Positions 5,301-11,058 of a stretch of DNA of 64,000 nt are shown one piece after another (the stretch's first letter is position 1; the number at the start of each line of letters is the position of its first letter). Where the stretch lies: assembly GCA_030447545.1 (NCBI GenBank), contig JAUJOV010000006.1:1-64000 (forward strand), in the 5' to 3' direction. Under the pieces are notes generated by a model. That model was not told the DNA's origin and made no database searches. It was given only the letters and a program-made list of their open reading frames with translations. The DNA is from Sphingomicrobium sp. (lineage in GTDB: Bacteria; Pseudomonadota; Alphaproteobacteria; Sphingomonadales; Sphingomonadaceae). Both the position numbers and the translations under genes were made by a program.

Positions 5301-5328
5301 TGTCCGCTTTCCACCCAAACCAGACATT
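5301..5328. repeat. Palindromic repeat, copy 6
   Basis: Left arm TGTCCGC and loop TTTCCACCC are intact; the right arm reads CCAGACATT, so the stem is damaged. It lies six bases before copy 7 in the same orientation, forming a tandem pair. Confidence 0.7.
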
Positions 5329-5334
5329 AGTCGA

Positions 5335-5363
5335 ATGTCCGCTTTCCACCCAAAGCAGACATT
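5335..5363. repeat. Palindromic repeat, copy 7
   Basis: Left arm AATGTCCGC with loop TTTCCACCCAAA and right arm GCAGACATT. It differs from copy 4 at one right-arm base, leaving a single mismatch in the stem. Confidence 0.75.
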
Positions 5364-5730: not shown

Positions 5731-5760
5731 GCGTCTGCTTTCCACCCGTTGCAGACATTA
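5731..5760. repeat. Palindromic repeat, copy 8, with compensating changes
   Basis: Here the stem core is TCTGC on the left and GCAGA on the right, instead of TCCGC and GCGGA. Both arms changed together so that pairing is kept. The loop TTTCCACCCGTT is conserved. Confidence 0.75.
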
Positions 5761-6329: not shown

Positions 6330-6428
6330 GACCGACCAATCAGCTGGAAGTCGCAAGCGCCGCAGCCCCAACTGCGTCAAAGGTTAAGAGGCTCAGCACC
6401 GCGTCCACTTATCATGCCGGTCCACAAC

Positions 6429-6456
6429 TCATGACAAAAATGACAAAATGTCATGA
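6429..6456. promoter_or_regulatory. 8-12-8 palindrome at the start of the DUF2868 gene
   Basis: Perfect 8-base inverted repeat TCATGACA (6429-6436) and TGTCATGA (6449-6456), separated by a 12-base A-rich spacer (AAAATGACAAAA). The start codon of the DUF2868 gene lies inside the right arm. A second copy with identical arms and the same spacing occurs at 9587-9614. It is probably an operator for a dimeric regulator, or an RNA hairpin that controls initiation. Confidence 0.7.
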
Positions 6457-8078
6457 ATACGAAGGCCCGGACACCCGCCCCGAGGCCAACCGGCGGCGGA
6501 CGCGCGGCGCGGATCAACTTTCTCGCCCCGCTGCATCTCGCTAGGGCTTGGGCTATTGTTGGCGCAGGTTTGCAGCGAAAGCACGGTGTGGCCGGACTAC
6601 GATTCGATGAAGAGGCAGCGCGCGACGTCCTGCTCGTGCGCGCCATCGAAAGCGAGGACGCCGAAGCGGTAGTGCTGACGCGTGACGACCGGCAGTATGC
6701 AACGACCGTAGCTCTAAACTCGACCCGGCTAGGAGAGACTGCCGACGCGCGGCACACGGCGGCGTTCCTGACCCGCCGCGCTGGCCTGGCGCTAGATCGG
6801 CTCGTGGGTCGATATCCGATGCTGCAGCGGGCCCGCAATTTGGCGCGCTGGCCGCTGTTCCTGAATTGGGCACTGCCGCTGAGCGCGCTGCTCATTGGCC
6901 TGGCCAGCAATGCCATCGAAGGGGATCGGCTGAACATTTTGGCGTTCCCACTGCTGGGAATGATCGCCTGGAACTTGGCCGTTTACGCACTGCTGCTACT
7001 CAGGTCTGTTCGCGCGTGGGTTGGTGGGGGCAAGCGCGCCACGCCGTCCCCTCCCGTCATCAACTGGATGTTGCGTACCGCAAATGCGCATTTGGCAGGT
7101 CACCCGACGCTCGAGCGCGCGGTCACCCGATTTGGGCGGGACTGGGCGGCCCTGGCGACGCCCCTCACCCGCTGCAGAGCTAGCCGCACACTCCATTTAA
7201 GTGCCGCCACATTCGCGTTGGGCATCATTGCGGGGATGTTTGCACGTGCACGGTACACGGCGGCGTACACTGCGGGCTGGGCTGGCACGTGGGCAGGCGC
7301 TGAGACGGAAATTGCTGCCTTTCTAAAGCTCGTGCTTGGCCCTGCGAGCGCCCTCACGGGCATCTCTCTGCCAACAATTGAGCGACTGCGTGAACTCCGA
7401 GGAGCAGGCGAGAACGCGGGCGACTGGCTGGTTCTGTGGATGGTCACTGCCGCTCTGTTTGTGATCGCGCCGCGTCTGGTTCTGGCTCTCGGCAGCTTGT
7501 CGCGATGCAGGCAGCTAAGTCGCCGCTTCGAGATCGCGCGCGATCTCTACGTCCGACGCGTGCTCCGGGACGCGCTAGGCCGGACAAGCACTGTCCGCGT
7601 GGTACCTTACGGCTTCAAGTTGGCAGGTCAGTCGGGAGACAAGCTCAAGCGTCTCCTTGTCGCCGGCCTGGGCGAGAAGACTACCGTCCACACCGACGCC
7701 TTGGTTCGTTACGGAGAGGAGGACGACTGGGTCGCGCAGCAGGCGAGTCAGGCGGGCAACGCAGATCAGCTCATCGTCCTGTTCAACCTTGCCTCGACGC
7801 CAGAGGCGGAAAATCACGGTGCTTTCGTGGCTCGGTTGCAAAAGCAGCTCAATCACAACCCAGAGCTAATGGTGCTGCTCGATGATAGCGGCTTCATGCA
7901 CAAGGTGCGCGGACAAGCGTACGCGCCCCGACGGCTCGAGGAGCGACTGCAAGGGTGGAGGACCATGCTAGCGAGTTTTGAAATCGTCCCAATCCGAGTG
8001 AGCCTCGACCCCAGCACGAGTAGCGAGGGCGCCAGCGAGTTGGAGCAGGCGCTGTTGCGTAGCACGGGGGCAGGATGA
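6453..8078 (+). CDS. DUF2868 domain-containing membrane protein
   Basis: A 541-residue protein of the DUF2868 family, which is typically encoded directly before a DUF3482 GTPase, as here. Four hydrophobic segments are visible: about residues 137-155, 158-178, 248-268 and 325-345 (LVLWMVTAALFVIAPRLVLA). These are followed by a long cytoplasmic C-terminal region of about 190 residues. The ATG at 6453 lies inside a palindrome and has no Shine-Dalgarno sequence before it, so translation may be leaderless. Its stop overlaps the start of the GTPase gene by 4 bases (ATGA), indicating translational coupling. The family's molecular role is unknown; a membrane partner of the GTPase is an inference from the conserved pairing. 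Confidence 0.8.
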   Translation: MNTKARTPAPRPTGGGRAARINFLAPLHLARAWAIVGAGLQRKHGVAGLRFDEEAARDVLLVRAIESEDAEAVVLTRDDRQYATTVALNSTRLGETADARHTAAFLTRRAGLALDRLVGRYPMLQRARNLARWPLFLNWALPLSALLIGLASNAIEGDRLNILAFPLLGMIAWNLAVYALLLLRSVRAWVGGGKRATPSPPVINWMLRTANAHLAGHPTLERAVTRFGRDWAALATPLTRCRASRTLHLSAATFALGIIAGMFARARYTAAYTAGWAGTWAGAETEIAAFLKLVLGPASALTGISLPTIERLRELRGAGENAGDWLVLWMVTAALFVIAPRLVLALGSLSRCRQLSRRFEIARDLYVRRVLRDALGRTSTVRVVPYGFKLAGQSGDKLKRLLVAGLGEKTTVHTDALVRYGEEDDWVAQQASQAGNADQLIVLFNLASTPEAENHGAFVARLQKQLNHNPELMVLLDDSGFMHKVRGQAYAPRRLEERLQGWRTMLASFEIVPIRVSLDPSTSSEGASELEQALLRSTGAG

Positions 8079-9592
8079 GCAGCCCTCCGCCTCCTCAAAA
8101 AGCGTCTGCGGAGATTATCAACCTCAGCCTGATCAGCCACACGAATGCGGGCAAGACCACTTTGGTCAGGACCTTGCTGCAGCAGGACGTTGGCGAGGTG
8201 CGTGATGCGGCACACGTGACGGACGTCGCCACTGGCTATGTAATGGTGCAGGAGGGTCCCCATACGCTTATGCTATGGGACACTCCCGGCTTCGGCGACA
8301 CGGCTCGGCTGGTGAGCCGCCTACGTGCGTCCGGAAATCCCATCGGCTGGTTCCTCAGCCAAGTGTGGGACCGGCTTCGTGATCGGCCACTTTGGTCGAG
8401 CCAGCAAGCGGTCCGGAATGCTAGAGATGAAGCAGATGTCGTCCTGTACCTGGTGAATGCCAGCGAGGACCCGGCTGGTGCGGCGTACATTCCGCTTGAG
8501 ATGGAAGTCCTTGCGTGGGTCAGAAAGCCCATCGTGCTGCTTCTAAATCAGACGGGGCCTCCAGGCGAAGACGGCAAAGCCGAAGAGCAGCGATGGACAG
8601 AGCACCTCGTCTCTACTGGGCTCGTGCGCGCGACGCTGACGCTCGATGCGTTTGCTCGTTGCTGGGTCCAAGAGCGCACGCTGCTGCGCACTATCACGCC
8701 GCTTCTCAACGACCGGCAGCAGCGGGCAATGGAAAGCTTGATTGCGGCTTGGACAGAGCGCAACTTGCAGCGCTTCCATGCATCCATGGGGGTTCTCGCC
8801 CGCCAGCTCGCTGCGATTGCCTGCGACCGCGAGGAGATTGGCGATCGCAAGTGGTACGACCGTGCGCGCGGTGCGGTCATGAACCCAATGGGAAGTGATA
8901 GCTCTCCGGAAGCTCAGCGGGCAATGGGCCGCCTGGGCGAGCGAGTGGATAAAGCGATCCGGGATTCGACTGACCGGCTCATTCAGCTGCACGGTCTCTC
9001 AGGCCGCGCCGCACAGGACGTGCTGAAGCGCATGCGCGACGACTACACTGAAGCAGCCCCCGCGTCGGAAGGCATTGCCGCCGTGCTTGGCGGGCTTGTC
9101 TCCGGCGCGGCGGGCGGGCTGGCGGCCGACCTCGCTGCAGGCGGACTGACGCTTGGAGCGGGCATGTTGGTCGGCGGCATTCTTGGCGCGGTTGGCGCGG
9201 GCTCCGCGGCGCGGGGCTACAACATGGCACGGGGAGACGAGAGCAATTCAGTGCGATGGTCACAGGAATTCTTTGCTGGCCTCGTTCGATCAGCTTTACT
9301 GCGCTACCTGGCCGTCGCGCACTATGGCCGCGGACGGGGCGAATGGGAGGAGGGCGAGCACCCTACCACTTGGCGCGATGCCGTGAGCGAAGTGGTAACG
9401 GCTGAGCGCGGGAAGATCAGCTCGATCTGGAGAAAGGCGCGTCACGCGGAGCCAGAAACCGTGGTGGGGGCGCTTCAAGAGGTCCTCACTCGTGGCGCTG
9501 GACAGTTACTGTCCGGGTTCTACCCGGAGACGGCGGACTTGTGGACACGAAGCGTAGCCACGACGATGATACGGCCGGCGCGCCACTCATGA
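8075..9592 (+). CDS. GTPase with DUF3482 domain
   Basis: A 505-residue protein with an N-terminal MMR_HSR1-type GTPase domain and a C-terminal DUF3482 domain. The P-loop is SHTNAGKTTL near residues 22-31, with Ser in place of the usual first Gly. The G3 motif is DTPGFGD near residue 70, and the G4 position reads NQTG near 154 instead of NKxD. The DUF3482 part contains a Gly/Ala-rich hydrophobic hairpin near residues 330-375 that could insert into or press against a membrane. It is translationally coupled to the DUF2868 gene. Its stop codon (TGA 9590-9592) lies in the left arm of the second palindrome. Confidence 0.85.
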   Translation: MSSPPPPQKASAEIINLSLISHTNAGKTTLVRTLLQQDVGEVRDAAHVTDVATGYVMVQEGPHTLMLWDTPGFGDTARLVSRLRASGNPIGWFLSQVWDRLRDRPLWSSQQAVRNARDEADVVLYLVNASEDPAGAAYIPLEMEVLAWVRKPIVLLLNQTGPPGEDGKAEEQRWTEHLVSTGLVRATLTLDAFARCWVQERTLLRTITPLLNDRQQRAMESLIAAWTERNLQRFHASMGVLARQLAAIACDREEIGDRKWYDRARGAVMNPMGSDSSPEAQRAMGRLGERVDKAIRDSTDRLIQLHGLSGRAAQDVLKRMRDDYTEAAPASEGIAAVLGGLVSGAAGGLAADLAAGGLTLGAGMLVGGILGAVGAGSAARGYNMARGDESNSVRWSQEFFAGLVRSALLRYLAVAHYGRGRGEWEEGEHPTTWRDAVSEVVTAERGKISSIWRKARHAEPETVVGALQEVLTRGAGQLLSGFYPETADLWTRSVATTMIRPARHS

Positions 9593-9614
9593 CAAAAGCG
9601 TGAAAATGTCATGA
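9587..9614. promoter_or_regulatory. 8-12-8 palindrome at the GTPase/third-gene junction
   Basis: Arms TCATGACA (9587-9594) and TGTCATGA (9607-9614) are identical to those of the element at 6429-6456, with the same 12-base spacing but a different spacer (AAAGCGTGAAAA). The GTPase stop is in the left arm and an ATG at 9611 is at the same place in the right arm as the DUF2868 start. Confidence 0.7.
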
Positions 9615-10213
9615 GGCCCCCGGGAGCAAGCCACCCCTCTTTCGCTAGATCGTTGCGGCGCTTTACCATTTGTGCTCACCTGCGCCTGGGCATGTTCAAC
9701 TTTCTCAACATATTCGGCCACCACGAGATCGACGCATGGCGGGATGAGCAGACGCTCGCGGCCGCGGCAGTCCTCAATGACCTTGCTACCCACCTGGCCT
9801 GTGGCTTCGAAGACGAACTTAAAAGCGCCACCTGGAATGATGGTCTTATAGCGCCTGGCAAATTCATTGCGACGCGCGTTTCGCCAGCTGTGCGAGAGGC
9901 ATCAGAGCCAGTCGTCGAAAAAATTCTCGATCGGGCCAATCGCGAACTTCAAGAGATCGTCGCCCACCAAGCCGTATGGAACGATACGCCAAGGCATTCC
10001 ACCGAAGCAGACGATCCGGCCCCGGCGCTGCAGGACGTGGCTGTTGCTGCGGCGCCGCTGGCCGGTGGACTAGCAGCAGCCGCAGCCCTGCCAGCGATGG
10101 CCGTCACGACCACGAGGCTTTTTTCGGCCTTGCGATCACGACAGCTATCAGTTGGCCGGTCGTGGTGGTCGGTGGCGCTTTGGCAGGGGTCTGCATTGCA
10201 ACTGGCGTGCTGA
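9611..10213 (+). CDS. Third cassette gene: membrane-associated protein, frame-shifted near its end
   Basis: The frame from 9611 gives 200 residues; an alternative start MFNFLNIFGHHEID is at 9692. The first part is acidic and helical, followed by an Ala/Gly-rich hydrophobic stretch (VAAAPLAGGLAAAAALP). At a run of six T (10119-10124) the neighbouring frame takes over and continues naturally with a second hydrophobic helix (AISWPVVVVGGALAGVCIAT) and a basic end (AEQRLRKRIHDHV) to about 10290. The native protein was therefore probably about 225 residues with a transmembrane hairpin. I do not recognise the family; position and the shared palindrome tie it to the DUF2868/DUF3482 pair. Confidence 0.5.
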   Translation: MRPPGASHPSFARSLRRFTICAHLRLGMFNFLNIFGHHEIDAWRDEQTLAAAAVLNDLATHLACGFEDELKSATWNDGLIAPGKFIATRVSPAVREASEPVVEKILDRANRELQEIVAHQAVWNDTPRHSTEADDPAPALQDVAVAAAPLAGGLAAAAALPAMAVTTTRLFSALRSRQLSVGRSWWSVALWQGSALQLAC

Positions 10214-10289
10214 ACACCAGCCGCATCTGGGCAAAAGCAGAGCAGCGTCTGCGCAAACGCATTCATGATCATGTTGTCGGGATCCTTGT

Positions 10290-10936
10290 ACGCGGCCCGC
10301 CCGACCAGCGGTCCCCGCGGCAAGCTGACGCGGTCTTCGGCGTGCTCCGGCTTATACTCGAGTGGGGCCGTGACCGCGGCCTTATCGGCCTCAACCATGC
10401 AACCAGGCCGAAGAAGCTCTACAAAGCCGACAGGTCCGACAAGCTATGGCTTCCCGCTCATCTTGACGCGTTCCGGGCTGTGGCCTCCCCAGAGATGCGG
10501 CTGGCGCTGGAGCTGGCACTTTGGACTGGGCAACGGCAGAGCGATTTACTGCGTCTTGGCTGGTCTAGCTACGACGGACAGCGCCTGACGCTGCGCCAAG
10601 GCAAACGGCGGCGGAAGGTCGACATGCCGGTTGCTGGGCCGTTGAGGGCCATTCTCGACGCCACAAAACGTACTGCGCTGACTATTCTTACCGCACCAAA
10701 CGGGAAACCAATGGCGAGCTGCCACGCTGGCGGCGGGCTTGGATGGGCTCCACTTCCATGATCTGCGTGGCACTACCTGTACCTTGTTGGCTGAAGCTGG
10801 CGCCACGCCCTCTGAAATCGCCGCAATGATCGGCTGGACCGTATCTACCGTGAACCACATGCTCGACACCTATCAAGCAATGACCGCCACCTTGAGTGAT
10901 TCAGCCGTTGCCAAATTGGAGCGCCGTGTCCGCTGA
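10290..10936 (+). pseudogene. Remnant of a phage-type tyrosine recombinase (integrase)
   Basis: The frame that carries the end of the third cassette gene runs without a stop into integrase sequence: ADAVFGVLRLILEWGRDRGL, then LALELALWTGQRQSDLLRL, which holds the first catalytic Arg. Near 10725 the frame changes and about 10-15 residues are missing; the rest reads LHFHDLRGTTCTLLAEAGAT (catalytic His-x-x-Arg) and HMLDTYQAMT with the nucleophile Tyr. The N-terminal DNA-binding domain is absent. All catalytic residues can still be found but the gene is broken. It lies directly beside the 3' end of tRNA-Gln, as expected for an island integrase. Confidence 0.8.
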
Positions 10937-10983
10937 TTTGCGGAATGAACTGCGGAATGGGCTGTGGATAAGTAGCTAAGTGC

Positions 10984-11058
10984 TGGCTGGGGCGGCAGGA
11001 TTCGAACCTGCGAATGCCGGTACCAAAAACCGGTGCCTTACCACTTGGCGACGCCCCA
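10984..11058 (-). tRNA. tRNA-Gln (anticodon UUG)
   Basis: Cloverleaf on the minus strand with acceptor stem TGGGGCG/CGCCCCA. The anticodon loop is TTTTGGT-like with UUG, the T-arm is GGTTCGAATCC, and the 3' CCA is encoded (10984-10986). Total 75 bases. The integrase remnant ends 47 bases from its 3' end, which marks this tRNA as a probable island attachment site. Confidence 0.9.

Follow-up and report, generated by a model that had tools for sequence, protein, structure and literature searches.

In integrons, small exchangeable genes have at their ends a palindromic site, attC, which carries end boxes and forms a hairpin with inner pairing. Another type of exchangeable unit is the dif module, which the passages of PMC10132070 that define it describe as genes surrounded by dif sites, each dif site consisting of two 11-bp half-sites around a 6-bp spacer. 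A third system relevant here is Juk (jumbo phage killer), in which, according to PMC13282480, the pore-forming effector JukB is recruited by the sensor JukA. Here, we compare with these systems a locus in a 64-kb window (i.e. the whole stretch of DNA analysed) in which two palindromic sites bracket a DUF2868-like/DUF3482 gene pair. Our preferred reading, to which we assign a probability of about 45%, is that these sites may be boundary marks of exchangeable gene modules, resembling dif modules and having different arms.

The original prediction described two palindromes with identical 8-base arms, identical 12-base spacing and differing spacers, and these are indeed present, as TCATGACA-N12-TGTCATGA with exact arms, at positions 6429-6456 and 9587-9614. 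Allowing up to three mismatches, the palindrome occurs twice in the 64-kb window, where 0.09 occurrences were expected from shuffled sequences, and a third copy was not found at this threshold. In the wider family of sites the arms extend to 10 bases (ACTCATGACA/TGTCATGAGT), with one mismatch in each of the window copies, W1 and W2 (Table 1), whose 6-bp cores are unlike (ATGACA vs GCGTGA). The palindromes enclose a 541-codon frame, which is the first gene as originally framed, and the gene of the DUF3482 GTPase, whose stop codon falls within W2. The view that the palindromes sit on gene starts had to be abandoned, as the start codons that they overlap are without support in relatives. In relatives, the frame of the first gene opens at the codon that corresponds to GTG 6588 or close to it, and DNA similarity to the relatives G680 and G687 sets in at 6556; for the third gene, the related proteins start with the residue equivalent to ATG 9692. 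Therefore, the palindromes lie 130 bp (first gene) and 76 bp (third gene) upstream of the likely true starts.

Table 1. Coordinates of the features of the locus in the 64-kb window.
Feature	Coordinates	Strand	Remarks
Site 1 (W1), 32-bp putative boundary site	6427..6458	no strand	ACTCATGACA AAAATGACAAAA TGTCATGAAT
DUF2868-like membrane protein	6588..8078	+	Probable GTG start; ATG 6453 unsupported by relatives
DUF3482 GTPase	8075..9592	+	Era-like G domain and Gly/Ala-rich hydrophobic segments
Site 2 (W2), 32-bp putative boundary site	9585..9616	no strand	ACTCATGACA AAAGCGTGAAAA TGTCATGAGG
Relic of the first gene of a JukB-associated two-gene module	9692..10320	+	Frame break near 10118; protein end and JukB-like partner missing
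Tyrosine integrase remnant, C-terminal part, in two frames	10321..10936	+	PF00589, below cut-off in both frames
tRNA-Gln (ttg)	10984..11058	-	DNA similarity to four same-genus relatives stops at its 3' end

When the retrieved loci were scanned with the 10-base arms, 20 sites were detected, distributed over 11 loci and carried by Sphingomonas-type and Paracoccus-type bacteria and by one IMG/VR contig. Two of these sites are in the window and one is on contig C43 of the same genome; the relatives G680, G684 and G750 (Sphingorhabdus soli) have four, two and two, respectively. The others are on the IMG/VR contig (L087, one), in Paracoccus benzoatiresistens (one), Paenirhodobacter enshiensis (one) and a Paracoccaceae MAG (two), and on plasmids of P. 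liaowanqingii (three) and P. marcusii (one). The site on C43 (33054-33085; L081:7055-7086), the third and a diverged one of the source genome, is at the stop of an intact-looking tyrosine integrase gene, after which a DUF4062 gene follows on the opposite strand.

The family is rare: the inner pattern was detected with at most one mismatch in 3 of 61 genomes (the source genome, G680 and G684), and exactly in 2 of the 397 family genomes drawn (the source genome and G750). A scan of a contig collection gave 12 stretches, six of which were kept, L091 and L093 being G680 again and L101 being G750 again; the six that were dropped (L092, L094, L095, L096, L099 and L102) have two to four outer-arm mismatches, come from unrelated bacteria, and are taken as chance or unrelated matches. 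Likewise, one of three IMG/VR stretches was kept (L087), and L088 and L089, with four mismatches, were dropped as chance or unrelated; of two further IMG/VR patterns, one returned L087 again and the other nothing. The two Paracoccus plasmids were added through a similarity search. A genome search at up to two mismatches matched 13 genomes, 12 of which were dropped, and six loci from five of these 12 were inspected; among them, the exact match, in L108, is within a gene whose sequence resembles leuS. Genome G145 contains three copies of a related-looking dyad, C(G/A)CATGACA...TGTCATGCG (C1:583242, 851985 and 1175327; L113 and L118), which were not counted as they represent a different-looking repeat. 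Several accepted sites have two or three arm mismatches and those of L080 at 10943 and 14357 have four; they were accepted on the basis of a control (the 665 kb of retrieved loci, mononucleotide-shuffled once) that gave no match at up to five arm mismatches and seven at six. A reversed-pattern control gave none among the matches listed. No description of these 32-bp sites was found in the open-licence PMC literature, a weak negative that applies to that literature, in which the two 10-base arms occur together in papers that, by title, deal with Frizzled receptors and pea root rot.

The 20 sites share a 32-bp layout of a 10-bp arm, three A/T positions, a variable 6-bp core, three A/T positions and a second 10-bp arm. 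Seventeen of the 20 arm columns agree in 18-20 of the 20 sites; the first-seen sites were picked by pattern, so that the conservation of the eight inner arm bases is partly due to selection, and the sequences are not independent. The three columns adjoining each arm are A/T in 95-100% of the sites, and the arm centres of the dyad are 22 bp apart. The inner spacer is mostly non-self-complementary, its positions pairing in 2-8 of the 20 sites. Spacers are more alike within a locus than between loci (8.15 vs 6.42 of 12 letters; permutation p 0.011), although the two spacers of G684 are divergent and share 3 of 12 letters. This architecture looks less like a hairpin than like a site at which two protomers would bind double-stranded DNA on either side of a 6-bp core.

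Many sites adjoin recombinase genes or are located in tRNA islands or on plasmids. In L080, a serine recombinase gene ends in a stop codon that touches one of the sites, and the L087 site is about 145 bp after another serine recombinase gene. tRNA genes are present on the site-bearing islands of L080 (Cys), L090 (Leu), L137 (Ser) and the window, and the islands of L090 and L137 also carry an integrase gene, at 1.3 kb and 12.8 kb from the site, respectively; in L137, the integrase and a TIR-like frame that comes after the site were named from sequence reading. At least two sites are present in 6 of the 11 loci, where they bracket unrelated genes. In L080, four sites part a recombinase gene, a segment that carries HTH-ImmA and DUF3800 genes, a short frame and the gene of a defence-candidate ATPase (PDC-S06, E 1.8e-183), and the array ends near tRNA-Cys. 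The site pairs of L085, L090 and L138 flank one or two genes that have no Pfam match above the cut-off, and two of the three sites of the P. liaowanqingii plasmid bracket VapBC and a tad-pilus block across the origin. Concerning the five single-site loci, three of the sites are no more than 2.6 kb away from a contig end, and those of L135 and L104 are not at contig ends. The single site of the P. marcusii plasmid lies between a DUF262 gene and a phosphoesterase gene in a helicase/methylase cluster.

Like integron cassettes, the genes at issue have palindromic sites at their ends and are small and apparently exchangeable. The attC end boxes, however, are not visible in the 20 aligned sites, and the inner spacer is unpaired, each of its positions being complementary in no more than 8 of the 20. 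The Acinetobacter plasmid dif modules and their pdif sites (PMC10132070 and PMC6449649) have a similar layout: both bracket one or a few genes with short dyad sites that have a variable 6-bp core, and both occur on plasmids and chromosomes with accessory cargo. Two half-sites around a 6-bp core were found in all 20 sites, and genes are bracketed in 6 of the 11 loci, but the half-site letters agree with those given for Acinetobacter in PMC10132070 at 6 of 11 positions for XerD (p 0.034) and 4 of 11 for XerC. Furthermore, the 32-bp sites are symmetric in their arms and are hosted by Alphaproteobacteria, unlike the Acinetobacter modules.

A role in recombination is the simplest reading because the arms of the dyad are fixed, the 6-bp core between the A/T flanks is free, and the genes bracketed are unrelated. 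The dyad site belongs to the mobile element and not to the gene pair, and according to this reading it would be the crossover site of a site-specific recombinase, either a Xer-like tyrosine enzyme or a serine recombinase. This enzyme would join and remove gene modules at matching or near-matching 6-bp cores, as has been proposed for dif modules in Acinetobacter, and the DUF2868-like/DUF3482 pair would be cargo between two sites. Since the cores of W1 and W2 are unlike, a strict need for core identity would bar recombination between them. A recombinase common to all 11 loci was not found, and no relative aligned on both sides of the G684 and G750 site pairs, which would have revealed an empty site; we therefore infer strand exchange, and an operator role is possible. 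Further observations against a boundary role are the mismatch to the XerD half-site, the divergent G684 pair, the single sites of L135 and L104, and an offset in plasmid homology, as the best matches to one plasmid flank, besides the record itself, start about 460 bp after the site and not at it. Two further plasmid flank comparisons showed no module junction among the matches listed.

The first alternative is that a transcription regulator encoded on mobile elements uses the sites as operators, in which case W1 and W2 would control the genes starting downstream of them. The spacing of the arm centres would suit an operator, W1, W2 and the first sites of L138 and L085 are upstream of gene starts, and HTH genes are near the L080 sites and the site at 6695 of a Paracoccus plasmid. 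However, sites in L080 and L081 lie on recombinase stop codons with no start nearby, the second L085 site, the L137 site and the plasmid site at 6695 are between convergent genes, the second L138 site and the last L080 site come after gene ends, and inspection of the frames near the window pair did not reveal a regulator gene. We consider operators unlikely.

Somewhat less probable still is that the sites serve the maintenance of plasmids or elements (partition, dimer resolution or replication) and were carried along into chromosomal islands. On the one hand, ParA/Rep genes are present in several loci that are plasmids or resemble them, and the two complete plasmids also have a recombinase-family gene. 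On the other hand, the sites are scattered and bracket accessory genes instead of clustering at rep/par, chromosomal islands carry two to four of them, and dimer resolution is itself a form of site-specific recombination.

That the sites act as hairpins, i.e. as RNA structures or transcription terminators, seems highly improbable: all six tested sites (of the 20) fold better than shuffled sequences as single-stranded DNA (z -3.4 to -8.4), but at each inner A/T position the letters could pair across the dyad in just 7-8 of 20 sites, the sites are not followed by a T-run, and some of them are between divergent genes.

Returning to the reading of the sites as boundary marks, the pair between W1 and W2 can be compared with the DUF2868-DUF3482 pair of Pseudomonas and other bacteria. 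The identification of the second gene was correct: its protein matches DUF3482 (PF11981) with E 8.5e-23 and 81.6 bits, against a cut-off of 29.2. For the first gene, the name DUF2868 (PF11067, which we take to be its Pfam accession) holds by resemblance and not by Pfam, in which no family was found at E≤1. It is DUF2868-like by profile-profile comparison (E 4.6e-5, probability 68.6), the target being partial proteins upstream of DUF3482 in other proteobacteria that were presumed to be DUF2868. Thus, the GTPase and its upstream partner are like those of the Pseudomonas-type pair, whereas the window partner is divergent and the window copy is bracketed by the 32-bp sites.

The first gene is present in 7 of 36 same-genus genomes (in G687 as two contig pieces) and in none of 24 same-order genomes. 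Two of the seven pair-bearing genomes, G670 and G687, are incomplete and have the pair on short contigs. Six of the seven copies are 67-84% (GTPase) and 48-73% (first gene) identical to the window proteins; the G677 copy was omitted from the alignments because its stretch contains a stop codon. The DUF3482 model scored over the cut-off in 35 of 397 Pseudomonadota genomes besides the source genome, none of them labelled as the same class, and among 289 genomes of the class, searching with the protein gave one longer match outside the source genome (G079, 29%). In two relatives (L062 and L063) the pair adjoins ftsE/ftsX-like genes, as named from sequence reading, and elsewhere it occupies other places; in G680, it is on a different contig from the sites. 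The third-position GC of the window pair (0.72/0.70) is similar to that of the G680 copy (0.68/0.67) and lies below both the average of the 35 window genes of >200 codons (0.815, sd 0.065) and the values of seven genes measured in five other relatives (0.77-0.86), which suits a recent acquisition.

The AlphaFold models of the pair are of moderate quality (pLDDT 66.5 for the GTPase and 67.6 for the DUF2868-like protein, the latter with a pTM of 0.49). In a structure comparison, the G domain of the GTPase model is nearest to Era/Der, Era being the top match. A dynamin-like fold is not established; the matches of the model of pLDDT 66.5 to IniA and to a pair of bacterial dynamins (5owv, 5oxf) have an rmsd of 26-57. 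Residues about 334-470 of the DUF2868-like protein are modelled as an alpha/beta domain. The model of this protein matches small GTPases weakly (best E 1.1e-3), so that its C-terminal part is possibly a pseudo-G-domain and a membrane pair of a GTPase and a pseudo-GTPase is conceivable; our guess is that the pair might combine a membrane protein switched by GTP with a partner that possibly has a pseudo-G-domain. PADLOC does not mark the pair as anti-phage: the first gene matches no family, and the GTPase matches LeoBC/LeoA alone, at about 1e-7 and over the G domain. A Gly/Ala-rich hydrophobic hairpin had been presented as a trait of the third gene; a similar stretch is also found within the DUF3482 protein itself.

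The third gene, proposed as a working component, proved to be broken, and the frame 9611-10213 is not an intact gene. The piece 9692-10117 and, in another frame, the piece 10120-10320 are 56% and 58% identical, respectively, to the same intact 228-residue protein of G665, and near 10320 the gene runs out into integrase sequence. In both G665 and G667, the gene after the homologue matches JukB of PADLOC (3.1e-15 and 3e-11, respectively), and the G665 copy is located after the BREX genes PglX, PglZ and BrxL. JukB-like matches are present in 7 of 177 family genomes, with a homologue of the third gene directly before them in four of the seven loci and none at E≤1 in the other three, which are short; altogether, a JukB-like gene is beside such a homologue in six relatives. 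The window third gene has no JukB-like partner after it, and no JukB match was found in its own genome, which is 70% complete. Because the third gene is split over two frames and ends in integrase sequence, and its homologues precede a JukB-like gene, it is what remains of the first half of a JukB-associated module, now dead. The intact homologues resemble Juk (JukA-JukB; PMC13282480) in preceding a JukB-like gene, unlike the broken and partnerless window gene. The sole PADLOC match of the G665 homologue at E≤0.01 is LeoBC (0.001) and not JukA, for which PADLOC may hold no model. A conserved two-gene module of a small protein with a hydrophobic stretch and a JukB-like protein is seen in L082:9240-10954, L083:9709-11405, L196, L197, L198 and L200, and is a candidate Juk-like defence variant.

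A true three-gene membrane or defence unit under the shared control of one regulator, as originally proposed, can practically be dismissed: gene order and palindrome placement speak for it in the window alone, but the third gene is broken, its relatives pair with a JukB-like gene, and none of the seven pair-bearing same-genus genomes has the palindrome at the pair (0/7) or a third-gene match (0/7; no overlap at E≤0.01), which is the lack of conservation beside other pairs named beforehand as grounds for rejecting the unit.

The suggestion of a mobile, possibly defence-related setting at a tRNA has fared better: a PF00589 remnant is next to tRNA-Gln, the third gene is JukB-associated, and the palindromes follow islands and plasmids. 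The source assembly has a size of 2.3 Mb in 99 contigs. In four same-genus relatives with the same order of tRNA and ilvE, the DNA similarity stops at the 3' end of the tRNA gene (10982-10984). The tRNA-Gln/ilvE locus is variable, with six same-genus regions lacking a syntenic match past this end; on the left flank, these six showed a 42-base match in one region and one protein match of 27% as the only similarity. A 16-base repeat (5504-5519/10975-10990) was unconvincing as attachment repeat of the island, as were other short matches to the tRNA end (best E 0.049, not the 16-base repeat). Three copies of a near-palindromic TGTCCGCTTTCCACCC...GACATT-type repeat are present at 5301-5363 and 5732-5759 of the window; this part of the window has short matches also in L058 and L080, and the repeat is probably a dispersed intergenic one. 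The best explanation of the locus is a patchwork island at tRNA-Gln that contains an intact pair bracketed by the two sites, a dead JukB-associated remnant unrelated to the pair, and an integrase remnant.

The likely misinterpretation of the pair as a machine of three parts under regulation is thereby corrected. More tentatively, and with more doubt than confidence, we propose that the sites might belong to an undescribed recombination system of Sphingomonadales and Rhodobacterales that uses symmetric 32-bp sites (13-6-13) and shuffles small defence or stress modules among tRNA islands and plasmids. If true, Alphaproteobacteria would have for immune genes their own equivalent of dif modules or integrons. 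Defence genes are clustered and rapidly replaced, and the enzymes and marks by which single modules move have been identified in few groups; with a 32-bp mark to search for, exchangeable modules, including unknown defence genes, could be found from DNA alone.
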